A DNA stretch of 64,000 nucleotides, from positions 1 through 64,000 of the forward strand of contig CANSDP010000003.1 of assembly GCA_947645675.1 (NCBI GenBank), given 5' to 3'. Position numbers and translations under genes: made by a program. Positions 408-21,940 of the stretch are shown here, piece after piece. Source of the stretch: an uncultured Bacillota bacterium (GTDB lineage: Bacteria > Bacillota > Clostridia > Oscillospirales > Oscillospiraceae). Every line of letters begins with the position of its first letter. The first letter of the stretch is position 1. Below the pieces are notes generated by a model. The model did no database searches, was not told the DNA's origin, and saw only the letters and a list, made by a program, of their open reading frames with translations.

Positions 408-437
408 TTGAAATAAGGTGGATAAAAATGATATAAT
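408..437 (+). promoter_or_regulatory. Probable promoter of the LytTR regulator / kinase operon
   Basis: TTGAAA (408-413) and TATAAT (432-437) are separated by 18 bp, ending 60 bp before the ATG at 498. The surrounding sequence is AT-rich compared with the genes. Confidence 0.5.
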
Positions 438-497: not shown

Positions 498-1208
498 ATG
501 ATCCGTGTTTTGATTGCAGAGGATGATCCCCGGTGCGCCAGACAGCTGCGGCAGTTTTTGGACAGCTACAGCCAGGAGACCGGCCGGACTTTCCGGATCA
601 CCCATTATGACAACGGCGAGGACCTGGTGGAGCGCTATCAGCCGGAGTTCGACCTGCTGCTGCTCGACGTGGACATGCCTTTCATGGATGGCATGACGGC
701 GGCCGGCCACATCCGGAGGCTGGACCCGGAGGTGGTGATCGTCTTTGTCACCAACCTGGCCCAATACGCCATCCAGGGCTACTCGGTAAACGCGCTTGAC
801 TACATCCTCAAGCCCCTGAACTATTTCTCCTTCTCTCAGCGGCTCACCCGGGCCCTGCGCTATGTGAAAAAGCGGGAGGACGCCTATATCACGGTGGCGG
901 TAAAGGGAGGGGCGCTGAAGCTGGAGGTGGGGAACATCCATTACATTGAGCGGCTGGGCCGTCAGCTGATGTTCCACACGCATGACGGTATACATGCCTC
1001 CTCCGCCACCCTCCAGCAGATGGAGGACGCCTTGAGCGGCAAGGGCTTTGCCCGGTGCAACAAGGGCTATCTGGTCAACCTGGCCCATGTCAGCGGGGTG
1101 CGGGACGGCTGCGCTGTGGTCCAGGGGGACAAGCTGCTCATCAGCCGGGGCCGGCGGGGGCCCTTTCTGGACGCCCTGGCCGACTATGTGGGAGGGATCA
1201 GCGGATGA
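498..1208 (+). CDS. LytTR-family response regulator (AgrA/LytR type)
   Basis: This is a 236-residue cytoplasmic transcription regulator. Residues 1-120 form a receiver domain with acidic residues at 8-10, phospho-acceptor Asp57 (LLLLDVDMPFMDG) and the conserved Lys in YILKP. Residues about 135-233 match a LytTR DNA-binding domain, which typically reads tandem 9-bp direct repeats. The ATG at 498 is preferred because an AGAGGG site lies just before it; an in-frame ATG 48 bp upstream has no ribosome binding site. Its stop overlaps the kinase start (ATGA at 1205-1208), so the two are translationally coupled. A matching LytTR-type repeat pair is found at 2590-2619 before the next operon, which suggests that operon is its target. 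The signal is unknown. Confidence 0.93.
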   Translation: MIRVLIAEDDPRCARQLRQFLDSYSQETGRTFRITHYDNGEDLVERYQPEFDLLLLDVDMPFMDGMTAAGHIRRLDPEVVIVFVTNLAQYAIQGYSVNALDYILKPLNYFSFSQRLTRALRYVKKREDAYITVAVKGGALKLEVGNIHYIERLGRQLMFHTHDGIHASSATLQQMEDALSGKGFARCNKGYLVNLAHVSGVRDGCAVVQGDKLLISRGRRGPFLDALADYVGGISG

Positions 1209-2539
1209 GCGTCTATCTCTCTGACATTCCCCGGCTTTTCACCGCCGCCGCCGAGTGGTGCGCCTGCCTGGTATTTATCCTCAACCGGCCCCGGCGCTTC
1301 ACCGGCCCCCGGCTGTGGGGCGTGCTGGGGGCCGGACTGCTGGTCCAGTGCGTGTTTCTCCAGCTGACCGACGGGCTACACATCGCACTGTGGCTGCCCT
1401 GTATGGCCGGGGCGGTGGGACTGATGCTGCTCCTCATCGCCGCCTGCTGCAGCATCCCGCTGCCGGGAGCGGTCTATTTCACCGCCTGCGCCTTTTCCAC
1501 GGCGGAGCTTGCCGCCTCCCTGGAATGGCAGCTGTGGTCCTACGCCCGGCACCTTCTGGGGCTGGAGGCGGGGGCAGAGGGGACCCTTGGGTTGTCTCTG
1601 CTCTTTTTGGCCGTGGTATACGCCGGCGTGTTTGCCCTGATGTACTGTCTCCAGGCCCGGCGGAAGGACCCGGATATCGCCCTGGCGTTTCAGCCCGGAG
1701 ACCTGTGGCCCCCGGTGATTATCAGCGCCGCCTGCTTTTTGATGAGCAATCTGTCCTTTGTCTACTCCGATATCCCCTTTACCAGCTCCGCCATCGAGGG
1801 AATTTACAACATCCGCACCCTGATGGACCTGGCGGGGGTGGCCATGCTGTACGCCTACCACGTCCAGCGCTGTGAGCTCTACGCCCAGCGGGAGCTGGAC
1901 GCCATGCAGAACATCCTGCAAAACCAGTATATCCAATACAAGCAGTCCCGGGAGAGCATCGACGTGGTCAACCGGAAGTACCACGACTTAAAGCACCAGA
2001 TCGCCGTCCTCCGGGCCGAGCCGGACGCCCAGCGGCGGCTGGATTTCCTGGACGGCATGGAGGAGGAGATCCGCACCTACGAGGCCCAGAACAAGACGGG
2101 CAACTCGGTACTGGACACCGTCCTTACGGGAAAGAGCCTGTACTGTGTCCGCCATGGAATTGAGCTGACCTGTGTGGCTGACGGCTCCAGGCTGGACTTT
2201 ATGGATGTGATGGACATCTGCTCCATCTTCGGCAATCTGCTGGACAACGCCATTGAGTGCGAGCTGACCATCCAGGACAAAAAGAAGCGGCTGATCCATC
2301 TGGCGGTATATGCCAAACGGGATTTTCTGGTGATTCAGTGCGGCAACTACTGTGAGGACGCGCCGGAATTTCAGGACGGCCTGCCCGTCTCCACCAAGGG
2401 GGACGGCGCTTATCACGGCTTCGGAGTCAAGTCTATCCGCCGTGCCGCCGAAAAGTACGGGGGAACAATGACGATCCATACCAGAGACAGCTGGTTTGAA
2501 CTGAATATCGTCATCCCCATTAAGGCGCCGATTGTTTGA
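1205..2539 (+). CDS. GHKL sensor histidine kinase (AgrC-like)
   Basis: A 444-residue membrane kinase. About six hydrophobic segments occupy residues 1-220, followed by a dimerisation helix with phospho-acceptor His260 in the YHDLKHQ motif typical of AgrC/ComD-type kinases. The GHKL ATPase follows, with N-box FGNLLDNAIE and glycine-rich GFGVKSI. It should phosphorylate the regulator whose last codon it overlaps. No small peptide precursor or AgrB-type protease is visible nearby, so a peptide pheromone cannot be assumed. A strong terminator hairpin starts inside the last codons. A long in-frame extension upstream runs into the regulator gene and is not used. Confidence 0.92.
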   Translation: MSVYLSDIPRLFTAAAEWCACLVFILNRPRRFTGPRLWGVLGAGLLVQCVFLQLTDGLHIALWLPCMAGAVGLMLLLIAACCSIPLPGAVYFTACAFSTAELAASLEWQLWSYARHLLGLEAGAEGTLGLSLLFLAVVYAGVFALMYCLQARRKDPDIALAFQPGDLWPPVIISAACFLMSNLSFVYSDIPFTSSAIEGIYNIRTLMDLAGVAMLYAYHVQRCELYAQRELDAMQNILQNQYIQYKQSRESIDVVNRKYHDLKHQIAVLRAEPDAQRRLDFLDGMEEEIRTYEAQNKTGNSVLDTVLTGKSLYCVRHGIELTCVADGSRLDFMDVMDICSIFGNLLDNAIECELTIQDKKKRLIHLAVYAKRDFLVIQCGNYCEDAPEFQDGLPVSTKGDGAYHGFGVKSIRRAAEKYGGTMTIHTRDSWFELNIVIPIKAPIV

Positions 2540-2565
2540 AACGTCAAACAGTCGGCGCCTTTTTT
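2523..2565 (+). terminator. Intrinsic terminator after the kinase gene
   Basis: A 17-bp stem (2523-2539 with 2544-2560, one G-U pair) has a 4-nt loop and a run of T at 2561-2565. The left arm contains the stop codon of the kinase. It separates regulator genes from the GH3 operon. Confidence 0.85.
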
Positions 2566-2589
2566 GTGCAGAAGTTATATAAGTCAAAG

Positions 2590-2619
2590 CAGTTTGCGCA
2601 AAAAAACAAGCAGTTTGTG
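2590..2619 (+). promoter_or_regulatory. Tandem LytTR-type binding site
   Basis: Two 9-bp direct repeats, CAGTTTGCG (2590-2598) and CAGTTTGTG (2611-2619), are separated by 12 bp. This is the spacing known for AgrA/LytR-type LytTR activators. The second copy ends about 9 bp before the expected -35 position of the -10 box TATGAT at 2651-2656, and that promoter has no good -35 at 17 bp (GTGTTG). This is what an activator-dependent promoter would look like. The likely binder is the LytTR regulator encoded at 498-1208. Confidence 0.65.
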
Positions 2620-2717
2620 CGGGAAGTGTGTTGAAGAGAATAAAATGTGCTATGATGCGTCTTGTCAAGGTCCGGGGCGGCGGCATGTCCCGGCAAAACG
2701 GAAAAGGAGAGGTAAAT

Positions 2718-5711
2718 ATGTCAAATCTGCTTGCGAATCTGCTGTCACCCATCTACAGCCCGATGGGCGTCAGCACCGCTGATTTTACATCCTATTTAAA
2801 GATGTGCAGCGGCCATATCTATGCCATTCTTGCGGCCCTGGTGATTATGGTCGTGGTCCTGGCTGCTGCCGGGAAGGCCAAAAAGGGCCTGCGGGGCCTG
2901 ATTCGGTGGAACGCCGTGCTGGCCATGATCGCTGTAATAGCCGTCTGCGTCAACCTGATCTGCTTCGGCCCCATGTATACCAACGTGTCTGGCGCCCTCA
3001 ACGCCGCCAAGGTGAACCTGTCCGCCGAGACGGTGGCCGGCAGCAAAGAGGCCATCCGCAAGGTGGGCGAGGAGGGCCTGGTGCTGGTGAAGAACAACGG
3101 GCTGCTTCCCCTGTCCTCCAGCGTCAACAGCCTGAACGTCTTTGGCTGGGGCTCCACCAACCCCATCTTCGGCGGTACCGGCTCCGGCTCCTCCGACGGC
3201 TCCAGCGCCGTGGGCATCCTCCAGTCCCTGAAGGAAGCGGGCTATACCACCAACGAGGAGCTGACCAAGCTTTATACCGACTACCGGCCTGACCGGCCTG
3301 TCATCGACATGCACTCCCAGGACTGGACCCTGCCCGAGCCCACCGCCGACGCCTACACCGACGCCGTGATGAGCCAGGCCAAGGACTTCTCCGACACCGC
3401 CGTGATCGTTATCTCCCGCTCCGGCGGCGAAAACGCCGACCTGCCCACCGATATGTACGCCCTGATTCACGGCACCTATAACATTGAGGAGCAGGTGTCC
3501 TACGCCCCCGGCAATTACGACTACTTCAAGGGCACCTATACCAACAACGGCAGCTATGACGACTTTGAGCAGGGTGAGCACTACCTGGAGCTGTCCGTCA
3601 CCGAGGAGAATATGGTGGAGAAGGTGTGCGCCGAGTTTGACAACGTGGTGGTGGTCATCAACGCCAACAACGCCATGGAGCTGGGCTGGGTGGACGACTA
3701 TCCCCAGATCGGCGCGGTCATCCTGGCCCCCGGCACCGGCAATACCGGCATGGCCCCTCTGGGTCAAATTCTCTCCGGCGCGGTCAATCCCTCCGGCCGC
3801 ACCGCCGACACCTATGTGAAGGACCTGACCCAAACCCCCACCTGGAACAACTTCGGCCACTTCGGCTATGACAACGTGGACGACCTGCGCCGGCAGATGG
3901 TGGAAAACGACGGTGCCTATCAGGGCGTGATCTCCTTCGTCAACTACGTGGAGGGCGTCTATGTGGGCTACAAGTTCTATGAGACCGCCGCCCAGGAGGG
4001 CCTCATCAGCTACGACGACTATGTCCAGTACCCCTTTGGCTACGGCCTGAGCTACACCACCTTCACTCAGAAGATCGAGAACTTCTCCGACAGCGGCGAC
4101 ACCGTCTCCTTCGATGTGAAGGTGACCAACACCGGCTCCACCGCCGGCAAGGAGGTCGTCGAGGTCTACTTTACCCCGCCCTACACCAACGGCGGCATCG
4201 AGAAGGCCAGCGTCAACCTGGTTCAGTTCGGCAAGACCGGACTTCTGGAGCCCAACGCTTCCGAGACGGTCCACTTCGACATCGCCAAAGAGGACTTCGC
4301 CGCCTATGACGACGGCCTGAAGATTTCCGGCGGCGGCTATATTCTGGAGGCCGGGGAGTACACCCTCTCTGTCCGCTCCAGCTCCCACACCGTGCTGGAC
4401 GAGGCCAGCTTCACCGTGGATTCCGACGTCGATTACAGCGCCGGACGGCCCAGTGACAACACCCCCGCCGTCAACGTGTTCCAGGACTACTCCCGGGGCG
4501 GCTTTGTCCAGCTCTCCCGGAAGGACGGCTTCGCCAACTACGCGGAGGCCACCGCCGCTCCCGCCGCCTCCGCCCATGAGATGAGCGCCGAGACCCGGGC
4601 CGCTGTGGAGAAGAACCTCTTTGGCTATTATGACCCCACCGCCCTGGATGACCCCAATGACGTGATGCCCACCCTGGAGGCCAAGAACGGCCTGAAGCTC
4701 ATCGACCTGGTGGGCAAGGACTATGACGATCCCCAGTGGGAGCAGCTTCTGGACCAGCTCTCCTTTGAGGACATGGTCACCATGATTAACATTGGCGGCT
4801 GGCAGACCGCTGCCATCGACTCTGTGGGCAAGGTTGCCACCTCTGACTGCGACGGCCCCGCCGGCCTGTCCAACTTCATCACTGGGGCCTACGGCACCGC
4901 CTATCCCTCCGAGGTTCTCATGGCCCAGACCTGGAATCAGGAGCTGATGTATGAGATGGGCGTAGCCATGGGCCAGGAGTACGCCGAGGCCAACAACTAC
5001 GGCTGGTACGGCCCCGCCATGAACACCCACCGCTCCGCCTTCGCCGGGCGCAACTTCGAGTACTTCTCTGAGGACGGCGTGCTGGCCGGCTATCTGGCCG
5101 CCGCCGAGATCAACGGCGCGTCCACCAAGGGCGTGTACCCCTACATCAAGCACTTCGCGGTGAACGACCAGGAGACCAACCGCTGCGCCGTTCTGCTGAC
5201 CTACGCCTCTGAGCAGGCCATCCGTGAAATTTACCTCAAGCCCTTTGAGCGCTGCGTGAAGGACTACACCGGAAAGAGTCTGGCCGCCATGTCCTCCTTC
5301 AACTTCATCGGCACCGAGCCCTCCTGCTCCAACCCCAACCTGCTGAACACCGTCCTCAGGGACGAGTGGGGCTTTGTGGGTATGGTGGAGTCCGACTACA
5401 ACGGCTCCTACGGATATATGATCTCTGACCACTGCGTCCGCACCGGCAACGACCTGATGCTGGCCTTCGGTCAGGCCGAGTCCAACAAGTTCACCGATGA
5501 GAGCGCCACCGCTGTCATCAACATGCGGGAGTCCTGCAAGAACATCCTGTACACCATTGGAAACAGCGGCTACTACGCCAACGGCGACCCCACCGGCGGT
5601 ATGGACAACATGACCAAGACCTTCCTCATGGCCGACATTGGCGTGGGCGTGGTCCTGGTGGCCGCTGAGGCTCTGCTGATCCTGAACTACCGCAAGCGTA
5701 AGGTCCAGTAA
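2718..5711 (+). CDS. Membrane-anchored, domain-permuted GH3 glycoside hydrolase
   Basis: A 997-residue GH3-family enzyme (beta-glucosidase type) whose domains are in swapped order. Two N-terminal membrane helices (about 35-57 and 65-90) are followed by the GH3 C-terminal alpha/beta domain (GEEGLVLVKNNGLLPL onward), a fibronectin-III-like domain, then the usually N-terminal TIM barrel with GRNFEYFSEDG, KHFAVNDQE and the nucleophile Asp893 in MVESDYNG. The C-terminus has a third membrane helix and ends RKRKVQ. Positive charges in the first loop and at the C-terminus put the catalytic part outside the cell. The start at 2718 has AAGGAGAGG upstream; the longer frame starting at 2628 lacks one. 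Permuted GH3 enzymes are known from rumen bacteria; flanking helices on both ends are less usual. Substrate is unknown. Confidence 0.92.
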   Translation: MSNLLANLLSPIYSPMGVSTADFTSYLKMCSGHIYAILAALVIMVVVLAAAGKAKKGLRGLIRWNAVLAMIAVIAVCVNLICFGPMYTNVSGALNAAKVNLSAETVAGSKEAIRKVGEEGLVLVKNNGLLPLSSSVNSLNVFGWGSTNPIFGGTGSGSSDGSSAVGILQSLKEAGYTTNEELTKLYTDYRPDRPVIDMHSQDWTLPEPTADAYTDAVMSQAKDFSDTAVIVISRSGGENADLPTDMYALIHGTYNIEEQVSYAPGNYDYFKGTYTNNGSYDDFEQGEHYLELSVTEENMVEKVCAEFDNVVVVINANNAMELGWVDDYPQIGAVILAPGTGNTGMAPLGQILSGAVNPSGRTADTYVKDLTQTPTWNNFGHFGYDNVDDLRRQMVENDGAYQGVISFVNYVEGVYVGYKFYETAAQEGLISYDDYVQYPFGYGLSYTTFTQKIENFSDSGDTVSFDVKVTNTGSTAGKEVVEVYFTPPYTNGGIEKASVNLVQFGKTGLLEPNASETVHFDIAKEDFAAYDDGLKISGGGYILEAGEYTLSVRSSSHTVLDEASFTVDSDVDYSAGRPSDNTPAVNVFQDYSRGGFVQLSRKDGFANYAEATAAPAASAHEMSAETRAAVEKNLFGYYDPTALDDPNDVMPTLEAKNGLKLIDLVGKDYDDPQWEQLLDQLSFEDMVTMINIGGWQTAAIDSVGKVATSDCDGPAGLSNFITGAYGTAYPSEVLMAQTWNQELMYEMGVAMGQEYAEANNYGWYGPAMNTHRSAFAGRNFEYFSEDGVLAGYLAAAEINGASTKGVYPYIKHFAVNDQETNRCAVLLTYASEQAIREIYLKPFERCVKDYTGKSLAAMSSFNFIGTEPSCSNPNLLNTVLRDEWGFVGMVESDYNGSYGYMISDHCVRTGNDLMLAFGQAESNKFTDESATAVINMRESCKNILYTIGNSGYYANGDPTGGMDNMTKTFLMADIGVGVVLVAAEALLILNYRKRKVQ

Positions 5712-5732
5712 AAAAATCAGACGATTTCGGGA

Positions 5733-5760
5733 GAGGGCCCGCCTTTGTGGGCGGGCCCTC
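5733..5760 (+). terminator. Intercistronic stem-loop between the two GH3 genes
   Basis: An 11-bp GC-rich stem (5733-5743 with 5750-5760) with a 6-nt loop lies 22 bp after the stop codon. No T-run follows on the plus strand, so it more likely partly attenuates or stabilises the upstream message than ends it. Confidence 0.5.
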
Positions 5761-5784
5761 CCTGTCAGGAAGGAGCGAAACGAG

Positions 5785-8202
5785 ATGAAGCATGAGGACA
5801 TTGTCAAGCAAATGACTCTGGAGGAAAAATGTTTCCTTCTCTCCGGCAAGGATTTTTGGCAGACCCGGAGTGTGGAGCGGCTGGGCGTCCACAATATGAC
5901 CCTGTCAGACGGCCCCCACGGGGTCCGCAAGCAGGCGGGCTCCGGGGATCAGCTGGGGCTGAATCCCTCCCTGCCCGCCACCTGCTTCCCCACCGCCGCC
6001 ACTATCGCCAACTCCTGGGACCCCGCCCTGGGGGAGGAGATCGGCACGTACCTGGGTGAGGAGGCTGCCTCCCAGGGGGTGGGCGTTCTGCTGGGGCCCG
6101 GGCTGAACATCAAGCGCAGTCCGCTGTGCGGCCGCAACTTTGAGTATTTCTCCGAGGACCCCTATCTGGCCGGAAAAATGGCCGCCGGGTACATCCGGGG
6201 CATCCAGAAGAACGGCGTAGCCGCCTGCCCCAAGCACTTCGCCTGCAACTCCCAGGAGCTGCGCCGCATGGCCTCCGATTCGGTTGTAGACGAGCGCACC
6301 CTGCGGGAAATCTATCTCACCGGCTTTGAGATTGCCGTCAAGGAGGGCAGGGCCAAATCCCTTATGTCCTCCTATAACCGGGTCAACGGCACCTACGCCA
6401 ACGAGAACTACCACCTGCTCCAGGAGATTCTCCGGGACGAATGGGGCTTCGACGGCTTTGTGGTCTCCGACTGGGGCGGCTCCAACGAGCACATTGAGGG
6501 TGTCCGGGCTGGCTCCCACCTGGAGATGCCCACCACTGGCGGCGACTCCGATTTGGAGCTGGTCCAGGCCGTCAAGGACGGGAAAATCAGCGAGGAGATC
6601 ATCAATCAGAGGGTGGACGAGATTCTGGATGTGATTCTCCCCGTCACCGAGGCTGTCAAAAAGTATGAGGGCAAGCCCTTTGACATCGAAGCTCACCACA
6701 AAATGGCGGCAAAGGCGTCGGAGCAGTCCATTGTCCTGCTAAAAAATGATGAGAATATCCTGCCGCTGAAAAAAGGCACAAAGGTGGCCGTCATCGGCGA
6801 GTTTGCCCAGAATGCCCGGTACCAGGGAGCGGGTTCCTCGGTGGTCAACGCCACCAGGGTGGACAACGCCATGGATGTCATCGGTAATTTTGACCTGGTC
6901 GTGGCCGGCTTTGAACCAGGCTACCCCCGCAGCGGCAAGGGCGACCCCGCCATGCAGGCCAAAGCGGTGGAGCTGGCAAAAAAGGCGGACATTGTTCTGC
7001 TCTACATCGGCCTGGACGAGATCAGCGAGTCCGAGGGCCTGGACCGTCCCCACATGAAGCTGCCCCAGAGTCAGATTGACCTGCTGGAGGCTGTTGCCGC
7101 CGTCAACCACAACGTGGTGGCGGTGATGTCCGCCGGGTCCGCTGTGGAGATGCCCTGGCTGGGCAGGTGCAAGGCCGTCATCCACGGCTACCTCTGCGGC
7201 CAGGCGGGGGCCTCCGCTGTGCTGAAGGCCCTCATGGGGGAGATCAACCCCTCGGGCAAGCTGGCGGAGAGCTGCCCCGTCAAGTATGAGGACGTGTCCT
7301 CCGACCCCTACTTCCCCGCCAAGCAGCGCACCGCCGAGTACCGGGAAGGGCTCTATGTGGGCTACCGCTACTATGAGACGGCCAATATCCCCGTCCAGTT
7401 CCCCTTTGGTTTTGGATTGAGCTATACCACGTTTGCATACTCCGATTTGAAGGTCTCCGATAAAGAAGCGGCCTTCACCCTCACCAACACCGGCAGTATG
7501 GACGGCGCGGAAGTAGCGCAGCTGTATGTAGGCAAACCGGACGCTAAGGTTTTTCGCCCCGCCAAGGAGCTGAAAGGCTTCGCGAAAGTTTTCCTCAAAG
7601 CAGGAGAAAGCAAAACCGTCACTATCCCCCTGGACGACAAGGCATTCCGGTATTTCAATGTCAAAACCAACCAGTTTGAGGTGGAAGGCGGCGAATATCA
7701 GATTATGGTTGGAGCGTCCGCAGCGGATATCAAGCTTACTGGAACCGTGGCTGCAGCCGGAACCGAAGCTCCCAATCCCTACAACGAAAAAGAATTGGCC
7801 GACTACTACACCGGAAACATCAAGGCCGTCTCCGACCGGCAGTTTGAGACTCTCCTAGGCCATCCCATCCCGGACGGCTCCTGGAGCGGGACCCTCACCA
7901 TGAACGACGCCATCTGCCAGATGTACTACGCCAAGAGCGGTCTTGCCCGTTTTGTCTGCCGGCGGCTGACCAGCATGATCAACAAGAGCATGGAGAAAGG
8001 CAAGCCTAACCTGAACCTGATGTTCAACTACAATATGCCCTTCCGAGGCATCGCCAAGATGACCGGCGGCATGTGTACCATGGAGATGGCCGAGGGTATC
8101 CTCATCATTGTCAACGGCCATTTCTTCAAGGGCCTGGGGCGGATCATCGGCGGCTTCTTCCGGGCAGGAAAGAAGCACAAGGCGGCCGCGGCCATCAAAT
8201 AA
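5785..8202 (+). CDS. GH3 beta-glucosidase-type hydrolase, cytoplasmic
   Basis: An 805-residue GH3 enzyme in the standard order: TIM barrel from residue 1 (MTLEEK, GRNFEYFSEDP, KHFACNSQE, nucleophile Asp229 in VVSDWGG), alpha/beta sandwich with SIVLLKND, GAGSS and AEYREGLYVGYRYYET, then a fibronectin-III-like domain. There is no signal peptide, so it should act in the cytoplasm. After the usual GH3 end a tail of roughly 110 residues follows (from about 695), with a glycine- and hydrophobic-rich stretch (GILIIVNGHFFKGLG) and a basic end; this may associate with membrane. AGGAAGGAGCG precedes the ATG. It is the second gene of the proposed LytTR-controlled operon. Substrate cannot be read from sequence. 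Confidence 0.93.
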   Translation: MKHEDIVKQMTLEEKCFLLSGKDFWQTRSVERLGVHNMTLSDGPHGVRKQAGSGDQLGLNPSLPATCFPTAATIANSWDPALGEEIGTYLGEEAASQGVGVLLGPGLNIKRSPLCGRNFEYFSEDPYLAGKMAAGYIRGIQKNGVAACPKHFACNSQELRRMASDSVVDERTLREIYLTGFEIAVKEGRAKSLMSSYNRVNGTYANENYHLLQEILRDEWGFDGFVVSDWGGSNEHIEGVRAGSHLEMPTTGGDSDLELVQAVKDGKISEEIINQRVDEILDVILPVTEAVKKYEGKPFDIEAHHKMAAKASEQSIVLLKNDENILPLKKGTKVAVIGEFAQNARYQGAGSSVVNATRVDNAMDVIGNFDLVVAGFEPGYPRSGKGDPAMQAKAVELAKKADIVLLYIGLDEISESEGLDRPHMKLPQSQIDLLEAVAAVNHNVVAVMSAGSAVEMPWLGRCKAVIHGYLCGQAGASAVLKALMGEINPSGKLAESCPVKYEDVSSDPYFPAKQRTAEYREGLYVGYRYYETANIPVQFPFGFGLSYTTFAYSDLKVSDKEAAFTLTNTGSMDGAEVAQLYVGKPDAKVFRPAKELKGFAKVFLKAGESKTVTIPLDDKAFRYFNVKTNQFEVEGGEYQIMVGASAADIKLTGTVAAAGTEAPNPYNEKELADYYTGNIKAVSDRQFETLLGHPIPDGSWSGTLTMNDAICQMYYAKSGLARFVCRRLTSMINKSMEKGKPNLNLMFNYNMPFRGIAKMTGGMCTMEMAEGILIIVNGHFFKGLGRIIGGFFRAGKKHKAAAAIK

Positions 8203-8211
8203 GGGGAGATT

Positions 8212-8787
8212 ATGATGAATTTTATGAACGATTTTGCGCAGAAACACCCCAAGGCTGCGGAGTGGGTCCGCAAGGGCGGGCTGTTCCTCATTTTCAGCTG
8301 GGTGGTCACAGCTCTGAAAGCGGTCATGCTTATGTTCCTGCCGGATGTGTTTCGGAGTATGGTGGGGGACGCCGAGTGGCTCTGGCCCAATATCCCTGTG
8401 GCCCTGTTCGGCGTCCAGTTCAACCTGGCCATCATTGGCAACGCCCTGGCCGCCGGCGGGCTGGCCTACACCCTGGCCAACCTGACTGCCATCTTCTTCG
8501 GGGAGTGCATCAACTTCCCCCTGCAAAGAAATGTGACCTTCAAGAGCCACGGTCCGCTGGCCTCTCAGCTTGGGCTGCACTTTCTGGCTACGGTGGCGGT
8601 CTTCCTGGTGATGAATCTGTTTACCTGCGTGTGGAACCCGGTCACCATCGCGCTGATCCCAAACGAGGCTTTGCGCAACACCATCCAGAGCATCGTGACC
8701 ACTGTAGTTACCGGCGGCGTGGCTATGGTCATCATTTTCGCCGTAGACAACAAAATTTTTGCTCCCCAATTTGGGGAGCAAAAATAG
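8212..8787 (+). CDS. GtrA-like small multipass membrane protein
   Basis: A 191-residue protein with about four hydrophobic helices. The middle part has the asparagine-phenylalanine-arginine pattern of GtrA-family proteins (NFPLQRNVTFKS resembles the NFxxNRxxTF signature), a family thought to move polyprenyl-linked sugars across membranes. It lacks the length and motifs of a glycosyltransferase. It starts 9 bp after the GH3 stop with an AGGGGAG site, so it belongs to the same operon. Two adjacent ATG codons (8212, 8215) are possible. The last codons lie within an inverted repeat. The role with the two GH3 enzymes is unknown; assignment to GtrA is by a short motif and topology only. Confidence 0.7.
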   Translation: MMNFMNDFAQKHPKAAEWVRKGGLFLIFSWVVTALKAVMLMFLPDVFRSMVGDAEWLWPNIPVALFGVQFNLAIIGNALAAGGLAYTLANLTAIFFGECINFPLQRNVTFKSHGPLASQLGLHFLATVAVFLVMNLFTCVWNPVTIALIPNEALRNTIQSIVTTVVTGGVAMVIIFAVDNKIFAPQFGEQK

Positions 8788-8854: not shown

Positions 8855-9154
8855 TACGTACTGCAGCGCTGTATCGTCCATCAGATCCGCGCCTCCATCC
8901 GCTTTGTCAGCTGGAAGGATATCAAGAAAGTAGTGGCTGGCCTGAAAAAAATCTACTCCGCTGTGACCCTGAAGGAAGCGGAGGGCGCCCTGCTCCAGTT
9001 TGGGGAAACGCAGAGCAATGGCATTTTGAAAATGCTGGCCCTGCCGGATGGTGTACGCATGGTTTGGGCGATCCGCAGCGTCGTCCTTGTGCTGGCGGGC
9101 TTCCTGTTCTCTGTGGTCTGCGTAAAGAGCGGGGAGCCGTCACGCCCGCTCTAA
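8855..9154 (+). pseudogene. Remnant of an IS256-family (Mutator) transposase
   Basis: A frame open from 8855 (after a TAG at 8852) encodes LQRCIVHQIRAS and SWKDIKKVVAGLKKIYSA, matching the HQIRNS...KDLK...LKxIYxA core of IS256-type transposases, followed by the leucine-rich stretch that normally leads into FEEKW. After FGETQ the similarity ends and the frame continues into a hydrophobic segment of unknown origin up to the TAA at 9152. There is no catalytic domain and no terminal repeats that I can see. It is a scar of an insertion sequence, not an active element, and marks a rearrangement between the GH3 operon and the next gene. Confidence 0.75.
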
Positions 9155-9961
9155 ATACTCCTCCAGGCAGAGCCCCAGTCTATGGAGCTCCTCCGCGTAT
9201 TCACGTCCCACATAGCGGTAGTGCCAGGGCTCATAGATAATACCGGTGATCTCGCTTTTGTCATTGGGATAGCGGAGAATAAATCCATATTCCCAGCTGT
9301 GCTCCATAAGCCATTTCTGCACGGCGGTATTTTCCTGGGACTCGTTCAAGTGCTGGTTGCTGATATCCACAATATCCACCGCCAGGCCCAGCTGGTGCTC
9401 GCTGGTCCCGGGCACCGCGACGGATTTTCCCGCCTCCGCCTCGGCGTTGGCCCGGGAATAGCCCCGGGCCAGCCAGCGTTCAGTCTCGGCGCGATATAAC
9501 CGCTCCTGATACTCCCGTGTCCGGTAGGCGGAGCAGATAACAGGGGACAGCCCCTCCGCCCGGCAGTCGTCCATCATAGCCTGGAGGTCCGGATAACACC
9601 GCTCGTCCACCTGAAAGCCGTTTCGAAGCTCCACCAGCTGGACGGAATAATCCTCGGGAAGCGAATTCCAGCGGTTTACCAGAAGCAGCTGCCAGCTGTC
9701 CTCAAGGTCAGGCTCCCTCGGAAGGGGCTCCCCCCAGTCCGCCGGGAGCGGGGGCTCCGGCCAGCTGGCATCGGTGTCCTGTTCCGGCCAGCTGGTTTTG
9801 GTATCCTGTCCGGCTGAATACGCGCTGCCCTCCTCCCAGGGGGCCAGAACCGTGATGAGAAGGGCCGCTGAGCACAAAAGAATCGTTATGGACAACAGGT
9901 CCTCAAGAATTCTATGCCGCCTGTGCCGCCGGCCTGGAGCGAATTTTCTGTATCTGTTCAT
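9140..9961 (-). CDS. D-alanyl-D-alanine carboxypeptidase, peptidase M15B (VanY/LdcB type)
   Basis: A 273-residue secreted or membrane-anchored zinc peptidase that trims the terminal D-Ala of peptidoglycan stem peptides. Residues 21-41 form a single membrane helix after a very basic N-terminus; a Pro/Trp-rich linker follows. The M15B domain has SAYRTREYQ, zinc ligands His189 and Asp196 in SEHQLGLAVDIVD, and His247 in EPWHYRYVG. The ATG at 9961 is chosen over one 39 bp upstream because GAGGTG precedes it. Its 3' end overlaps the transposase remnant on the other strand. It is monocistronic. No vanR/S/H/A/X genes are nearby, so this is housekeeping wall trimming rather than a glycopeptide cassette. 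Confidence 0.92.
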   Translation of the reverse strand: MNRYRKFAPGRRHRRHRILEDLLSITILLCSAALLITVLAPWEEGSAYSAGQDTKTSWPEQDTDASWPEPPLPADWGEPLPREPDLEDSWQLLLVNRWNSLPEDYSVQLVELRNGFQVDERCYPDLQAMMDDCRAEGLSPVICSAYRTREYQERLYRAETERWLARGYSRANAEAEAGKSVAVPGTSEHQLGLAVDIVDISNQHLNESQENTAVQKWLMEHSWEYGFILRYPNDKSEITGIIYEPWHYRYVGREYAEELHRLGLCLEEYLERA

Positions 9962-10086
9962 AGTAAAAACACCTCGCTGTGCTGAAAGTAATCCAATCAT
10001 AGCAAGGCGCTTCTTCCAAATATCATCGCTTTACCATCGAATTGGCATCGTCGGTTAAAAAGGGAGTACCCATTCGCAGATTTTAT

Positions 10087-13061: not shown

Positions 13062-13760
13062 TCAGCCCTGGCCGTAGTAGGCGCCGGGGCCATGCTTGCG
13101 GAAGTAGTGCTTGTCCTGATAGCGCTGGGGGGCCGCTCCCGCGGAGGGCCGGATCTGTCGGGTGAGGATGGCCATTTTGGCCACCTCCTCCAGTACCACG
13201 GCGTGGTACACCGCCTGGGCGGCGTCCTTGCCCCAGGTGAAGGGGCCGTGGCTGGCGCAGATCACCCCGGGGACGGCGGTGGGCTCGATGCACCGCTCCC
13301 GGAAGGTGTCCACAATGATCTTTCCGGTGTTCCGCTCATAGTCCTCCTCCAGCTCCCCCTGGGTCAGGTGGCGGGCGCAGGGGACGGAGCCGTAGAAGTA
13401 GTCGGCGTGGGTGGTGCCGAAGCAGGGGATATCCTCCCCGGCCTGGGCCCAGGCCACGGCGTGGGGGCTGTGGGTGTGGACGATGCCGCCCACGCCAGGG
13501 AATGCCTTGTACAGCTCCAGGTGGGTCTTGGTGTCGCTGGAGGGCTTCCATTTGCCCTCCGTCACCTGGCCGGTCTCCAGGCTCACCACCACCATATCCT
13601 CGACGGTCATGCCGTCGTACTCCACCCCAGAGGGCTTAATGACCATTAGGCCTTTGTCCCGGTCTATCCCGGACACGTTGCCCCAGGTGAAGGTGACCAG
13701 GCCGTATTTGGGCAGGAGGAGGTTGGCCTCCAAAACCGCTTGCTTAAGCGCTTCTAACAT
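13062..13760 (-). CDS. araD: L-ribulose-5-phosphate 4-epimerase
   Basis: A 232-residue class II aldolase-fold enzyme that turns L-ribulose 5-phosphate into D-xylulose 5-phosphate, the last step of bacterial arabinose entry into the pentose phosphate pathway. The zinc-site residues fall at the same numbers as in E. coli AraD: Asp76, His95 and His97 (HTHSPH) and His171 (ASHGPFTWG). The N-terminal TWGNVSG and IKPSG phosphate-binding motifs are present. Length matches the family (about 231). It is the last gene of the minus-strand arabinose operon, separated from araA by a 134-bp repeat element and closed by the terminator at 13016-13055. Confidence 0.96.
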
Positions 13761-13774
13761 AGTACCTCTCCTCT

Positions 13775-13908
13775 AAAGGCTCCCTCTCCGAGGGAGCTGT
13801 CGAGCGAAGCGAGACTGAGGGAGTTCTCACAAAATTCAACGCAGCCCTTGAAGGACTCCCTCCGTCACGGCTCCGCCGTGCCACCTCCCTCTAAGAGGGA
13901 GGCTTTTT
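13775..13908. repeat. Dispersed cloverleaf-like repeat (full form)
   Basis: This element between araA and araD starts AAAGGCTCCCTC and ends GAGGGAGGCTTTTT. Inside are hairpins GCTCCCTC/GAGGGAGC, CGAGCGAAGCGAG, CACGGCTCCGCCGTG and CCTCCCTC/GAGGGAGG, and ACTGAGGGAGT can pair with ACTCCCTCCGT. Related elements are at 40132-40315 and 61751-61861. It lies inside the transcribed arabinose operon. Confidence 0.75.
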
Positions 13909-15373
13909 ACTTCAGCTTCCAGGCCAGATCAGACAAGAACAGGTCGTGCTCCAGGCTCTCCAGGGTGGTGTCCTTGCCGATGTGGACAAACTCAATGTCC
14001 ATCATGGTACACCAATCCTTCATCTGCTCGGCAGTGACATCGTAGCTGAGGACGGTGTGGTGGGCGCCTCCGGCGGTGATCCAGCACTCTACCCCGGTGG
14101 TCAGGGAGGGCTCGGCCTGCCACATCACCCGGGCCACGGGCAGATTGGGCATGGGCAGGATGGGCTTGACGCAGTGGATGTCCTGGCAGATCAAGCGCAG
14201 GCGTCCCCCCATATCGATGAGGGAGACCACGATGGCGTCCCCCTCCTTGCCCTCAAAGACCAGGCGGGCGGGGTCCTTCTCATTCATGCCGATGCCCAGG
14301 TGGTGGGTCTCAATGCGGGGCTTCCCAGCAGCGCAGCAGGGGCAGACCTCCAGCATGTGGGCCCCCAGGGAGTACTCCTTCCCCGGCTCCAGGTTATAGG
14401 TGTAGTCCTCCATGAACAGGGAACAGCCGTTGCCGTTCTCGCCCATGGCCTTCATAATGGCGGTCATGGCGGACACCTTCCAGTCGCCCTCGCCGCCGTA
14501 GCCGTAGCCCTGGGCCATCAGGTGCTGGGAAGCCAGTCCGGGGAGCTGCTCCATGCCGTACAGGTCCTGGAAGGTGTTGGAGAAGGCCTTGCAGCCCTCA
14601 GCGTCCAGCATCTTCTTCATGGCGATCTCTTCCCGGGCCTGATAGCGGATGTGGTCGATTTTGTCGGTGGCGATGTCATAGCTGGCCTTATAGGTCTCCA
14701 TCAGGGCGTCGATCTCTTCCTCAGTGACGGCGTTCATCACCTTCACCAGGTCGCCCACCGCCCAGGTGTTCACCTGCCAGCCAAGCTTGGCCTGGACCTC
14801 TACCTTGTCGCCCTCGGTGACAGCCACCTCTCTCATATTATCACCAAAGCGCATAACCTTCAAGCCCCTGGACACCGCCGCGCCCACGGCGGCCTTCATC
14901 CAGCTCCCGATGCACCCCTGAACAGCCTCGTCCTTCCAGTATCCGGCGATGACCTTCCGGGGCGCGCGGAGCCGGGCCCCGATGAAGCCGTGCTCCCGGT
15001 CGCCGTGGGCGGCCTGGTTCAGGTTCATGAAGTCCATGTCGATCTCCTCGTTGGGGATCTCCCGGTTATACTGGGTGGCAAAGTGGCACCAGGGCTTCTG
15101 GAGGCTGGCCAGACCGTTGATCCACATTTTGCTGGGGGAGAAGGTGTGGCACCAGGTGATGATCCCGGCGCAGGAGTCGTCATAGTTGGCCTCCTTCACC
15201 ACGTCGGCGATCTCCTGGTTGGTCTTGGCGGTCACCTTGTAGATCAGGGGGAAGGGCAGGGCCTTGGACAGCTCACCGGCCATCTCCCGGGCCCTGGCGG
15301 CCACCGTCTCCAGCACCTCGGGGCCGTACAGAAACTGACTGCCTACCACGAACCAAAAGGAATATTTGTTCAT
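13907..15373 (-). CDS. araA: L-arabinose isomerase
   Basis: A 488-residue enzyme that isomerises L-arabinose to L-ribulose using a divalent metal. The N-terminus FWFVVGSQFLYG is diagnostic of AraA, as are HTFSPSKMWI, the NREIP loop, GYGYGGEGDWK and the C-terminal ITAGGAHHTV. Length is near the usual 490-500. The ATG at 15373 follows GAGGAGGAA; a longer in-frame reading from 15454 runs through a repeat and is rejected. It lies between the FGGY kinase and araD on the minus strand. A GGGGCGG-type repeat sits in the gap to the kinase. Confidence 0.97.
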   Translation of the reverse strand: MNKYSFWFVVGSQFLYGPEVLETVAARAREMAGELSKALPFPLIYKVTAKTNQEIADVVKEANYDDSCAGIITWCHTFSPSKMWINGLASLQKPWCHFATQYNREIPNEEIDMDFMNLNQAAHGDREHGFIGARLRAPRKVIAGYWKDEAVQGCIGSWMKAAVGAAVSRGLKVMRFGDNMREVAVTEGDKVEVQAKLGWQVNTWAVGDLVKVMNAVTEEEIDALMETYKASYDIATDKIDHIRYQAREEIAMKKMLDAEGCKAFSNTFQDLYGMEQLPGLASQHLMAQGYGYGGEGDWKVSAMTAIMKAMGENGNGCSLFMEDYTYNLEPGKEYSLGAHMLEVCPCCAAGKPRIETHHLGIGMNEKDPARLVFEGKEGDAIVVSLIDMGGRLRLICQDIHCVKPILPMPNLPVARVMWQAEPSLTTGVECWITAGGAHHTVLSYDVTAEQMKDWCTMMDIEFVHIGKDTTLESLEHDLFLSDLAWKLK

Positions 15374-15443
15374 TAGATGTTCCTCCTCATATTTTTGGAA
15401 TCTGGGAGAGCGGACCGCCCCTAAGATCAGGAGCCGGCCCGGC

Positions 15444-15470
15444 GGGCGGATCATATCCGCCCCTACAGGC
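15444..15470. repeat. GGGCGGAT palindrome, member of the GGGGCGG repeat family
   Basis: GGGCGGAT and ATCCGCCC pair around CAT and are followed by CTACAGG, the same end seen at 32398 and 52089. It lies in the araA-kinase gap. Confidence 0.55.
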
Positions 15471-15479
15471 GGCGCCGTT

Positions 15480-17006
15480 TTACAAAACAGACACCGCCGT
15501 CTTCTCCACCTCCAGCAGAGCCCTGTACCGCCGGATATAGGTATTGAACCCCTCCGCGCAGGCGGGGTCGGGCTGGACGGTGGAGCCGGACGCCCCGGCG
15601 AAGACCCGCTTACTCAGGAAGTCCTCCAGGCGTTCCCCTTCCTCCTTGTTCATCAGGAAGGAGGCCAGCAGGGCCATACCGTAGGGCCCGCCCTCCCCGG
15701 CGGTCTCCATACAGGTGACCGGGGCGTTGCAGGCGGCGGCCATATAGCTCTGGCCCACCACAGGGGTTTTGAACAGTCCGCCGTGGCCGGTGAGAGAGTC
15801 GATGGCAACTCCCTCCTCCGCCAGGATATCCATGCCGATTTTCAGGGTGGACATGGTGGCGTAGAGCTGAGCGCGGAAGAGGTTTGCCAGGGTAAATTTG
15901 CTCTCCGGGGTGCGGACCACCATGGGACGGCCCGCGTCCATGTGGGTGACCCCCTCGCCGGCAAGATAGTTGCACACCAGCACCCCGCCGCAGTCCGGGT
16001 CGCCCTCCAGGCTCTTCTCATAGAGCTTGGTGTACAGCTCCCCGGCGGAGGGCTCCGCTCCGAAGAGGCGGGCGGCCTCCCCCAGAACACCGACCCAGGC
16101 GTTGGTGTCGTTGGTGCAGTTGTTGCAGTGGACCATCGCCACCGGGGCCCCGGTGGGGGTTGTCACTAAGTCGATCTCCTCATAGACCCGCTCCAGGGGG
16201 CGCTCCAGCACCACCATGGAGAAGATGGAGGTCCCGGCGGACACGTTGCCCGTCCGGGGGGCCACGGCGTTGGTGGCGGTCATACCGGTGCCCGCGTCCC
16301 CCTCGGCGGGGGCGAAGACTACCCCCAGGGGGAGCAGGCCGTCCAGCATCGCGGCCCCCGCCTCGGTGAGGGCTCCGGCGTCCTGGCCCGCCGCCAGCAC
16401 CTTGGGGAGCAGGTCCTCCAGACGCCAAGGCAGGGCCTGGACGGCTGGCAGGGCATTGAACTTTGCCATCATGGCCGCGTCATAATCCAGTTTACCGCTG
16501 TCGATGGGGAACATGCCCGACGCCTCGCCCACGCCCACGGCGTGGATCCCGGTGAGCTTATAGTGGATGTACCCCGCCAGGGTGGTGATGTGGGCCACCT
16601 GGGGGACGTGCTCCTCCTTATTCAGGATGGCCTGATACAGGTGGGCGATGGACCACCGCTGGGGGATGTTGAAGCCGAAGAGCTTGGTCAGCTCGGCGGC
16701 GGCCTGACCGGTAATGGTGTTCTGCCAGGTGCGGAAGGGGGTGAGCAGGTTCCAATCCTTGTCAAAGGCCAGATAGCCGTGCATCATGGCGGACACCCCG
16801 GCGGCCGCGATGTCCTCCCGGTTCTTCACCTGAAGCAGGGCGGTCTTCAGGCCGATCCACACCTCCTCCAGGGGGTAGGTCCACACGCCGTTCTCATAGC
16901 GGGAGGCCCAGGTGTAGTCCCCGGAGGAGACGGGCCTGAACTGGCCGTCGATGGCGACGGCCTTGACGCGGGTGGAGCCCAGCTCGATGCCTAAACAGGT
17001 TTTCAT
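15480..17006 (-). CDS. FGGY-family pentulose kinase, probable L-ribulokinase
   Basis: A 508-residue two-domain sugar kinase. The N-terminus GIELGSTRVKAVAID is the phosphate-binding strand of the actin-like fold; AAAGVSAMMHGY and FRTWQNTIT form the sugar-side signature region; GNVSAGTSIF and GHGGLFKTP are the C-terminal nucleotide motifs. By position between the sugar importer and araA, the substrate should be L-ribulose, giving the AraA-kinase-AraD pathway. It does not look like classic E. coli-type AraB, resembling instead the kinase type used by many Firmicutes in this role. It starts 12 bp after the permease stop. Xylulose kinase activity remains possible. Confidence 0.85.
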   Translation of the reverse strand: MKTCLGIELGSTRVKAVAIDGQFRPVSSGDYTWASRYENGVWTYPLEEVWIGLKTALLQVKNREDIAAAGVSAMMHGYLAFDKDWNLLTPFRTWQNTITGQAAAELTKLFGFNIPQRWSIAHLYQAILNKEEHVPQVAHITTLAGYIHYKLTGIHAVGVGEASGMFPIDSGKLDYDAAMMAKFNALPAVQALPWRLEDLLPKVLAAGQDAGALTEAGAAMLDGLLPLGVVFAPAEGDAGTGMTATNAVAPRTGNVSAGTSIFSMVVLERPLERVYEEIDLVTTPTGAPVAMVHCNNCTNDTNAWVGVLGEAARLFGAEPSAGELYTKLYEKSLEGDPDCGGVLVCNYLAGEGVTHMDAGRPMVVRTPESKFTLANLFRAQLYATMSTLKIGMDILAEEGVAIDSLTGHGGLFKTPVVGQSYMAAACNAPVTCMETAGEGGPYGMALLASFLMNKEEGERLEDFLSKRVFAGASGSTVQPDPACAEGFNTYIRRYRALLEVEKTAVSVL

Positions 17007-17018
17007 GGCGCGCCCTCC

Positions 17019-18065
17019 TTACTTCTTGTCCTTCCGCAGCAGCACGATGCTCTGAACCACCAGGAACAGGCAGAGCATTCCGGCCACGGTGATGTTGGAC
17101 CACCATGCCTCGTCAAAGCCCAGAGAGGAGACGATGCGCTTGATGGTGTTCAGGCTCAGCACGCCGAAGAAGGTGCCGATCACGTTGCCTACGCCGCCGG
17201 TGAGCAGAGTGCCGCCGATGATGGAGGAGGCGATGGCGTTCATCTCATCCCCCGCGCCGTTGGCCACGTCGCCGCTGCCCACATGGAGGAAATAGAGGAT
17301 GCCGCCCAGACCGGCCAGCACGCTGCACAGCACATGGGCCAGGAACTTGGTCCGGCGCACGTTGATGCCCAGCATGTTGGCGCTCTGGTTGTTGCCGCCC
17401 ACGGCGTAGAAGGCGCGGCCCAGGCCGGTCCAGCGCAGCAGGCAGAACAGGAGGATCACCACCAGCAGGGCGATCACCACGCCCACCTCCACGTAGGCCG
17501 GGATGTAGACGCCCAGCTTGTTGGGGGCGCCCAGGCCGGGGACGTTGATGCGCATATCCTTTACCGCCAAAAAGCCCTCGTTTGTCACGCGGACTGGCTC
17601 CTTGCTGACGATGGTGGTCATGCCCTTGGCGAAGAACATGCCCGCCAGAGACACGATGAAGGGTTGGATACCCAGATGGGCCACCAGGAAGCCCTGGATC
17701 ACGCCGAAGGCCAGGCCGATGCCCAGACCAATCAGGATGACAGTCAGCATATTGCCGCCCTGCCGCTCCAGATTCACCGCGCAGGTCATACACACCAGGC
17801 AGGTGACGCCGCCCACGCTGATGTCGATGCCGCCGGTAATCATGACAATGCTCATACCGCAGGAGAGAACGATGAGGGAGGCATTGTTGTTCAAAATGTT
17901 GAGGAAGTTCTGAGGCTTGGTGAAGCTGCCGCCCAGGAAGAGGATGGCGGCCAGATAGAGAATGAAGAACACCACCACCGTGATGGTGAGCAGCAGAGTG
18001 GTGTCGCTCATGGCGGCCCGCTCCTTCAGCCGTCCCTGTTTATCAACCGCGATTCCGTTCGGCAT
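17019..18065 (-). CDS. Sugar ABC transporter permease (RbsC family, YjfF-like)
   Basis: A 348-residue inner-membrane permease with 8-10 hydrophobic helices. The stretches MSIVMITGGIDISVGG, SLAGMFFAKGM and AIASSIIGGTLLTGGVG are characteristic of RbsC-type permeases, and the end of the protein most resembles YjfF of the galactofuranose importer. The ATG at 18065 is chosen because AGGAGGTG lies 9 bp upstream within the end of the preceding permease gene; the next in-frame ATG at 18011 is a weaker choice. With the second permease it forms the channel of a heterodimeric importer. Its place in the arabinose operon suggests L-arabinose, possibly in furanose form. Confidence 0.92.
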   Translation of the reverse strand: MPNGIAVDKQGRLKERAAMSDTTLLLTITVVVFFILYLAAILFLGGSFTKPQNFLNILNNNASLIVLSCGMSIVMITGGIDISVGGVTCLVCMTCAVNLERQGGNMLTVILIGLGIGLAFGVIQGFLVAHLGIQPFIVSLAGMFFAKGMTTIVSKEPVRVTNEGFLAVKDMRINVPGLGAPNKLGVYIPAYVEVGVVIALLVVILLFCLLRWTGLGRAFYAVGGNNQSANMLGINVRRTKFLAHVLCSVLAGLGGILYFLHVGSGDVANGAGDEMNAIASSIIGGTLLTGGVGNVIGTFFGVLSLNTIKRIVSSLGFDEAWWSNITVAGMLCLFLVVQSIVLLRKDKK

Positions 18066-18066
18066 G

Positions 18067-19176
18067 TCAGGACACCTCCTTTGCCGTCTTGGCCGGCGCT
18101 TTCTTCAGGCTGGCCAGCTTCTCCCGCACCACCGGAGCGCTGAGCACCACCAGCAGTATGACCACCACCGCTTTATAGGCGGGCAGAGCCGTAGAGGGCA
18201 CGTCGTACTTGTAGAGGGTGGTGGTGAGGAATTGAATCACATAGGCCCCCAGGATGGAGCCGTAGATGTTGAATCTGCCGCCGGACAGGGCGTTGCCGCC
18301 CAGGGCCACCGCCAGGATGGCGTCCATCTCGATGTTTTCCGCTATACGGGAGTAGTTGATGGAGCCGCTGCGGCTGACCCGGATGAAGCCGGCCACCGCC
18401 ACGCACACCCCCAGAATTACATAGGTGAGCAGCTTAATCATCTTGGGGTCCAGGCCGTTGAGGCGGGAGGAGTTGGCGTTAATGCCCACCGACTGGGTAT
18501 ACAGCCCCAGATTGGTCCGCTTCAGCACCAGCCAGAAGATCAGAATCACAGCGGCGGTGATGAAAATAGGAGTGGGGACGGGAATGCCGGGGAGGAAGGT
18601 CCCCGCGTACTTGAAGGCAATGTCGTTGATAATGGGCAGCTGGTTGTTGTTGATCCAGGCCGCGATGGAGCGGCCGGCGGTGAACATAATCAGGGTGGCA
18701 ACCATGGGCTGGATCTTGAAATAAGCCACCAGAGCGCCGTTGAACGCGCCGAACAGGGCGGTCACGGCGATGCCGATCAGGACGGCCAGAATCAGGTTCA
18801 TCTGCATGGTGTCGGCGGTGACCTGACCGCCGCAGACCATCCGGAGGATGACGCTGCCGGCGATAGCCATGGTGGCGCCCACGCTGATGTCCTGCCCGCC
18901 GGAGGAGGCGGTGACCAGCGTCATGCCAATGGCCAGGATGACCAGCTCAGAGGCGTTGTCCAGCACCGAGATGATATTGCCGCTGAGCACCGGGTTGCCC
19001 AAGCTGTTCTCCTTCACCGAAACCGCAAAGAAGGAGGCGTCAGCGATCAGGTTAAACAGAACCAGCAGGACCAATGCCGCCACGGGGATAAACATCTGGT
19101 GCCGGGTGAGCCGCTTGAAGAGGGGCTCGTCGGGCCGCTTTACCTGGGTCTCAGGGTTCTTCACTGGGGTCGTCAT
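18067..19176 (-). CDS. Sugar ABC transporter permease (RbsC family, YtfT-like)
   Basis: A 369-residue membrane permease with a soluble basic N-terminus (about 45 residues) and repeated hydrophobic helices. GMTLVTASSGGQDISVGA and MDAILAVALGGNALSGGRF are the family's conserved cytoplasmic loops; the C-terminal half most resembles YtfT. Its start overlaps the ATPase stop by 4 bp (ATGA), and GGAGGTGATGAGGC precedes the ATG. Together with the neighbouring YjfF-like permease, double ATPase and lipoprotein, it makes a four-gene importer. Confidence 0.92.
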   Translation of the reverse strand: MTTPVKNPETQVKRPDEPLFKRLTRHQMFIPVAALVLLVLFNLIADASFFAVSVKENSLGNPVLSGNIISVLDNASELVILAIGMTLVTASSGGQDISVGATMAIAGSVILRMVCGGQVTADTMQMNLILAVLIGIAVTALFGAFNGALVAYFKIQPMVATLIMFTAGRSIAAWINNNQLPIINDIAFKYAGTFLPGIPVPTPIFITAAVILIFWLVLKRTNLGLYTQSVGINANSSRLNGLDPKMIKLLTYVILGVCVAVAGFIRVSRSGSINYSRIAENIEMDAILAVALGGNALSGGRFNIYGSILGAYVIQFLTTTLYKYDVPSTALPAYKAVVVILLVVLSAPVVREKLASLKKAPAKTAKEVS

Positions 19177-20690: not shown

Positions 20691-20721
20691 AGGGATACGC
20701 CTCCATTCTCTCACAAAATTA

Positions 20722-20755: not shown

Positions 20756-20794
20756 CGGGTCACGTAATACCTGCTGTTTACTTACACGCTGAAA

Positions 20795-21938: not shown

Positions 21939-21940
21939 TA

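Follow-up and report, generated by a model that had tools for sequence, protein, structure and literature searches.

The stretch of DNA analysed here (the window) comprises 64,000 nucleotides of contig 3 (CANSDP010000003.1, positions 1 to 64,000) of an uncultured Oscillospiraceae bacterium, whose genome assembly is 2.46 Mb and 82% complete. Near its start we find, in this order, a LytTR response regulator (RR), a GHKL sensor kinase (HK), a terminator and a pair of 9-bp direct repeats, followed by an operon encoding two glycoside hydrolases of family GH3, one domain-permuted (GH3p) and one of canonical order (GH3c), and a GtrA-like membrane protein (Table 1). Apart from the domain order of the two GH3 enzymes, these elements had been named in a preliminary description of the locus, and each was confirmed in the sequence. 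The sensor part of HK has four hydropathy windows ahead of residue 147, and the regulator pair would be expressed from a predicted promoter of its own, at which no repeat pair was seen. Ahead of the operon, in keeping with the promoter without a -35 box described earlier, we could see no clear -35 in the window, and there is an extended -10 (TGC TATGAT) instead. Comparison with related loci establishes, at the level of sequence, which genes make up the set, that the repeat pair stands in phase with a TGnTATAAT element and co-occurs with the regulator pair, and that a tailed GH3c is tied to the GtrA-like protein.

Table 1. Features of the locus (coordinates of the window unless a locus is named) and stand-alone regulator pairs found elsewhere.
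Feature	Position	Strand	Remarks
Sigma-70 promoter of the regulator pair (predicted)	408..437	+	TTGAAA, 18 bp, TATAAT; 11/12 matches; TG ahead of -10
LytTR response regulator (RR)	498..1208	+	receiver PF00072 and DNA-binding LytTR PF04397 (Pfam)
GHKL sensor kinase (HK)	1205..2539	+	PF14501 (Pfam); N-terminal part with multiple transmembrane (TM) segments
Intrinsic terminator (predicted)	2522..2561	+	18-pair stem and T-run; separates regulator genes from operon
Distal LytTR half-site (predicted), CAGTTTGCG	2590..2598	+	
Proximal LytTR half-site (predicted), CAGTTTGTG	2611..2619	+	21 bp start to start from distal half-site
Extended -10 (TGC TATGAT)	2648..2656	+	31 bp past second half-site
GH3p, domain-permuted GH3	2718..5711	+	predicted ecto-enzyme, TM-anchored
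GH3c, canonical-order GH3	5785..8202	+	predicted cytoplasmic; hydropathy shows no TM helix
GH3c C-terminal tail (about residues 668-805)	7786..8199	+	helical from residue 710 in model
GtrA-like membrane protein	8212..8787	+	four long membrane helices in model; PF04138 below cut-off
Stand-alone RR/HK pairs	L189:5867-7938, L190:8342-10407, L191:517-2573		neighbours include groEL- and tex-like open reading frames

To compare loci, the GtrA-like protein was sought in 200 genomes of the family and found in 13, the window's own included, and a GH3p alignment run against named genomes turned up 487 relatives, from which we retained the 80 best loci. Both sets together made 88 rows for a scan of promoter sites. 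Eight were dropped, these being L118 and L117 (on the same contigs as L025 and L033), the window genome's own degraded copy (L037), three rows with less than 120 bp upstream (L103, L111 and L081), L085 (GH3p frameshifted), and L108, a near copy of L107 and L112 with a misplaced start and an open reading frame (ORF) overrunning into HK; the last was dropped after showing no site, and in the GH3p tree it is counted as site-less and pair-less. The 80 usable rows, which hold near copies (L089/L090/L092; L107/L112), include 27 with an RR/HK pair within 600 bp, 47 with none within 8 kb and six in between. All five genes occur in 21 of the 27 loci with an adjacent pair (the window included, and L099 counted, whose regulator pair is divergent). 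Of the 12 non-own loci fetched with the GtrA-like protein, all carry a GH3p- or GH3c-type gene in the same stretch and three have the five genes complete. By this comparison of sequences the RR/HK-GH3p-GH3c-GtrA-like set is a conserved module, and its closest named GH3p relatives are those of Pseudoflavonifractor sp. 60 (89% identity in the best segment) and Flintibacter muris (88%), which makes a gut bacterium of Oscillospiraceae type the probable host.

The regulator is tied to the operon by the site upstream of GH3p. Here, the half-site score was written from four promoters (window, L025, L027 and L029) in which repeats and -10 stand at matching positions and which are themselves among the 27 positives, a gap of 30-33 bp to the -10 was allowed, and a site was called at a score of at least 18. 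Such a site lies upstream of GH3p in 27/27 loci with an RR/HK pair within 600 bp as against 7/47 loci that lack one over 8 kb (Fisher p 5e-14), and in 23/23 of the former when the four score-defining promoters are left out; among the six in-between rows, L068 and L091 have it and L100, L101, L105 and L115 do not. Since the loci are related, a test on the tree is fairer than the Fisher test, and on a GH3p tree of 81 rows (like our other trees a quick one, with no bootstrap), where the presence of the regulator pair changes 15 times, the site follows the pair in eight independent comparisons, opposes it in none and shows no difference in five (median p 0.008). A half-site consensus of CA(A/G)TTT(G/A)TG emerges from the 36 sites; the spacing of half-sites is 21 bp in 26, 20 bp in nine and 22 bp in one, and the gap from the repeat pair to the -10 is 30-32 bp, a range that is partly built in because the score includes the -10 and was built on the first four promoters. 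TGn precedes the -10 in 35 of the 36 sites, though it is unscored, and matches to a -35 never exceed 4/6 in any of them. With the -10 excluded, the repeats alone score a mean of 15.8 in 30 rows with a pair and 12.8 in 57 without, and another 58 kb of sequence, scanned on both strands, has no site. LytTR-activated promoters are marked by two direct repeats spaced about 21 bp and placed immediately ahead of the core promoter, and this arrangement is present here. Given the tree test and the unscored TGn, the prediction that the regulator pair controls the GH3 operon is strongly supported by these comparisons, with the 9-bp repeats as its likely operator. The preliminary description had proposed beforehand to give this up if the repeats were not conserved upstream of orthologous GH3 operons or if the regulator and GH3 genes did not co-occur; both checks were run, and neither refuted it.

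Among the seven sites without a neighbouring pair, that of L058 is probably false, being remote from the start and without TGn; the other six are good sites with TGn and candidates for regulation in trans. In five of these six genomes a full-length HK relative (394-485 bits) is encoded elsewhere, not within 8 kb upstream, compared with five of 19 site-less genomes (p 0.02); in the sixth (L078), the HK relative reaches just 185 bits. A search seeded with HK gave 12 loci, of which five have a site directly after the kinase gene, all with TGn, and in three of these the next gene is GH3c; two of the three come from genomes whose GH3p (L096 and L113) has no site.

As for the enzymes, both GH3 domains and the catalytic Asp and Glu are present, and the nearest solved relatives of GH3p and of GH3c are beta-glucosidases. 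In GH3p, alignment to 2x40 assigns D893 as nucleophile and E238 as acid/base, on our assumption of these catalytic roles for the aligned residues of 2x40, and hydropathy places TM helices at residues 34-52, 66-84 and 965-983. Its domain order we read as that of the permuted GH3 beta-glucosidases 5k6l and 5wug, in which the N-type GH3 domain comes late (from residues 531 and 565), though GH3p differs in having TM helices at both ends and a second GH3 as partner. GH3c scores 744.9 bits against the GH3 exo-alpha-(1->6)-L-arabinopyranosidase equivalog NF041610, below its cut-off of 1300. Its C-terminal tail matches no Pfam family and has no sequence relative among solved structures (E up to 10); when the complete GH3c model was compared with solved structures, the match covered residues 1-663 and so not the tail, which is modelled as helical with a basic last helix. 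On the predicted topologies, then, one outer (GH3p) and one inner (GH3c) glycosidase are likely, as had been proposed.

The GtrA-like protein scores 22.3 bits against PF04138, short of the cut-off of 26.1, a relative in L123 reaching 29.3, and its predicted model matches the DPMS membrane domain most closely, consistent with a DPMS-type fold; no other PF04138-type hit occurs in the genome, which is 82% complete. The operon encodes no glycosyltransferase, whether of the GtrB type expected as a partner or other, and none was recognised by eye among the 28 listed of 30 neighbour clusters that recur in at least three loci (ORFs of at least 90 residues, with Pfam run on members of three clusters only, namely LysR, secreted GH3 and alpha-amylase). 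In a sample seeded with GH3c (matches at 1e-180 in 56 of 391 class genomes, with loci taken for the best 30 places), GtrA was sought within about 1.5 kb of GH3c, L176 offering just 343 bp downstream, and was found after the fully tailed GH3c in 9/9 cases, the window included, versus 0/21 for other GH3; the tailed genes form one group, so these are not 30 independent trials. The tail is matched in 13 of 295 order genomes, and among 13 loci obtained with a tail hit GtrA comes next in four of five having a strong tail (L120, L122, L123 weakly, and L124) and in none of eight with a weak one (below 55 bits). In the GH3p-seeded set, five tailed GH3c genes are truly without GtrA, and behind each of them stands a sugar symporter of MFS_2 type (assigned by Pfam in L044 and L070); GtrA and symporter occur together in no fetched stretch. 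No L044-type symporter appeared in the 391 class genomes at E 1e-150, a cut-off so strict as to make this uninformative. A tailed GH3c beside a symporter, or in L121 beside neither, shows that the tail needs no adjacent GtrA.

With regard to known systems, Gram-positive polysaccharide utilisation loci (gpPULs) are defined as requiring a recognised carbohydrate transporter in the cluster. Glycoside hydrolases and a regulator are clustered at our locus, and there is no ABC, PTS or GPH gene in 498-8787, a GPH-type gene being present in the sister clade (L044, L045, L049, L070 and L072). The module works like a gpPUL, and we do not file it as one. The gpPULs of Roseburia and Eubacterium rectale likewise join glycosidases to an adjacent regulator, and Ros-7 is listed with a LytTR RR, an HK and a GPH transporter; the lists given there place ABC, MFS or GPH transporters where our module has the GtrA-like protein, and enter Ros-7 with GH25, GH43 and GH51, not GH3 (PMC5320581). 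In Butyrivibrio proteoclasticus B316, each of the three LytTR regulators (PUL7, 21 and 33) is found near a secreted GH3 that carries a TM helix at its C-terminus, and the authors also infer carbohydrate sensing (PMC2914790, 2010). The likeness is by description, to one sentence in a section that leaves operator, domain permutation, GtrA and a tailed GH3c unmentioned (PMC2914790), yet it means that the pairing of LytTR regulator and GH3 is itself not new, so the earlier statement that no description of such a set was known needs correcting in this respect. The literature searched, in which few subscription papers were covered, yielded no description of the paired repeats, of the extended -10, of GtrA as a partner or of the tail. 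AgrA-type promoters of Staphylococcus aureus, in the account drawn on here, likewise have a dimer bound to direct repeats immediately ahead of a promoter that is suboptimal, where binding at our site is predicted; they carry -35 elements with 18- and 20-nt spacers, in contrast to the lack of a clear -35, the retained TGn and the glycosidase targets seen here (PMC4227749). The predicted four-helix GtrA/DPMS-type membrane fold recalls the polyprenyl-phosphate-sugar flippases GtcA and GtrA as there described, from which our protein differs in having no operon glycosyltransferase, in scoring below the Pfam cut-off and in its link to GH3 enzymes (PMC7389260). Both GtrA and GH3 appear in PMC11418510, each in a gene list of its own.

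Taken together, with a confidence somewhat above even and on the strength of sequence comparison, we read the locus as a LytTR/GHKL-switched GH3p-GH3c-GtrA-like operon for the regulated uptake and hydrolysis of beta-glucosides. HK would sense a cue, RR would bind the two half-sites and RNA polymerase would be recruited to the extended -10; GH3p would then cleave or trim the substrate outside the cell, the GtrA-like protein would carry into the cell either the substrate itself or a glycoside already trimmed in part, and GH3c would complete hydrolysis inside, perhaps tethered to the membrane or to GtrA through its helical tail. A bolder version, which we put forward tentatively and think rather unlikely, makes the GtrA-like protein a new sugar permease of GtrA/DPMS fold delivering a glycoside, which might be an amphiphilic glucoside from plants or lipids, straight to a tail-docked cytoplasmic GH3, with a LytTR system that once served peptide signalling now sensing glycosides. 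Several observations weigh against our main reading, in addition to the partly built-in gap and the single group of tailed genes. We know of no GtrA-fold protein that imports free glycosides. The symporter loci are one clade nested among GtrA rows, so that the swap is a single event (the outgroup of the tree behind this does not form a single clade, and long branches come together in it), and three of the five carry LysR near GH3p or GH3c, regulator and transporter having thus changed together. L121, with a strong tail (230 bits), has neither GtrA nor symporter within 1.5 kb; a convergent helicase-like ORF follows its GH3c, and the same genome has GtrA on another contig (L026). On the regulatory side, 12 of 36 sites reach 4/6 matches to a -35, compared with 12% expected, mostly in related loci with TGCACA or TGTACA, and a weak -35 may therefore exist in some lineages; L115 has a pair in its neighbourhood and no site. 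Outside the module, the HKs most similar to the window's (69-70% identical) belong to the genomes of L100, L101 and L105, whose GH3p genes have no site; their RR/HK pairs (Table 1) stand by themselves, and the stretches of 8-14 kb fetched around them contain neither a GH3 nor a site. Together with L193, in which an RR/HK pair lies beside a different permuted GH3 without a site, these cases make the association of regulator and site a strong but not an obligate one.

Beta-glucoside uptake and hydrolysis fits better than the remodelling of a surface glycan through GtrA as a lipid-linked-sugar flippase, so that of the two functions offered in the preliminary description scavenging fits and remodelling is unsupported. 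That rival would have GtrA flip polyprenyl-phosphate-glucose outward, as in the GtcA/GtrA systems, with the two GH3s trimming or recycling glucose decorations of the cell's own surface. We consider it improbable: the DPMS-like model, ten GT2 hits in the genome that could make the lipid sugar, and the motif F102-x3-R106, which resembles F91-x3-R95 of GtcA (an equivalence by reading, with no GtcA alignment), speak for it, and R95 is essential in GtcA (PMC7389260). The missing glycosyltransferase, in the operon and by eye among the recurring neighbours, speaks against it, as do the tie of the genome's sole PF04138-type protein to the tailed GH3c and to GH3p/GH3c-type genes in all 12 non-own loci, and the sugar symporter that can occupy its slot. 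About equally doubtful is the proposal that GH3p and GH3c form a regulated glycoside-degrading pair to which the GtrA-like protein is an accessory, for instance a membrane dock for the GH3c tail, with sugar entering through transporters encoded elsewhere. Such a dock would suit the joint occurrence of tail and GtrA, the helical tail with its basic last helix and the unlinked monosaccharide ABC transporter in the window, and agrees poorly with tailed GH3c genes that persist beside a symporter without GtrA or, as in L121, without either. LytTR/GHKL pairs commonly serve peptide circuits, and the HK sensor is multi-TM, so an agr-like peptide quorum sensor might make the operon answer to cell density rather than sugar; we regard this as very improbable, since no AgrB-like gene was recognised among the listed recurring neighbours, a search in which a small peptide gene would be missed because only ORFs of at least 90 residues were judged, mostly by eye.

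The locus offers a testable promoter code, two CARTTTGYG-like repeats, 30-32 bp and TGnTATAAT, for a putative LytTR regulon serving glycosidases in gut Clostridia, with Flintibacter muris and Schaedlerella arabinosiphila among the named isolates included. Gut bacterial beta-glucosidases help to decide the fate of dietary plant glucosides, so their control would matter for host exposure. The membrane partner is moderately surprising: a GtrA-type protein, from a family of polyprenyl-phosphate-sugar flippases, gains a consistent hydrolase partner in place of a glycosyltransferase, which raises the question of whether a GtrA fold can carry free glycosides.

Among neighbouring genes, L-arabinose genes (araD, araA) and a YtfQR/YjfF-like monosaccharide ABC transporter occupy 13062-21910 on the minus strand. 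These were considered as a clue to the substrate and dropped, because none of the 93 loci searched contains a relative of araA, of araD, of the binding protein or of the ORF that we took for araB (which has no family hit); they were not found beside the GH3 module elsewhere. The next large ORF past the GtrA-like gene, on the opposite strand (9140-10000, minus), encodes a VanY-like D-Ala-D-Ala carboxypeptidase homologue (204 bits; family cut-off 400). On contig 28 of the window genome (L037:3573-8324) there is a second GH3p-GH3c pair with a frameshift and internal deletions and without RR/HK or repeat site, perhaps a paralogue in decay or else an error of assembly; a LysR-like ORF (3573-4463; read from the sequence, not scanned) lies divergently upstream of it. 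LysR genes identified by Pfam also occur in five site-less loci (L044:8902-9729, L049:1990-2961, L072:4414-5424, L041:270-1298 and L048:8816-9709), pointing away from GH3p or GH3c in the place of the LytTR pair, which suggests that these enzymes have switched from one type of regulator to another. Contig 29 of G000 has six GT2 glycosyltransferase hits in 10 kb (14591-24216), probably a surface polysaccharide locus. Lastly, a further secreted-looking GH3-type protein is encoded in L097 (6834-9632) and 16 other loci, often just upstream of GH3p on the same strand; Pfam finds GH3_N in the two that were scanned, and the L097 protein has DNPYANPY repeats near its N-terminus.

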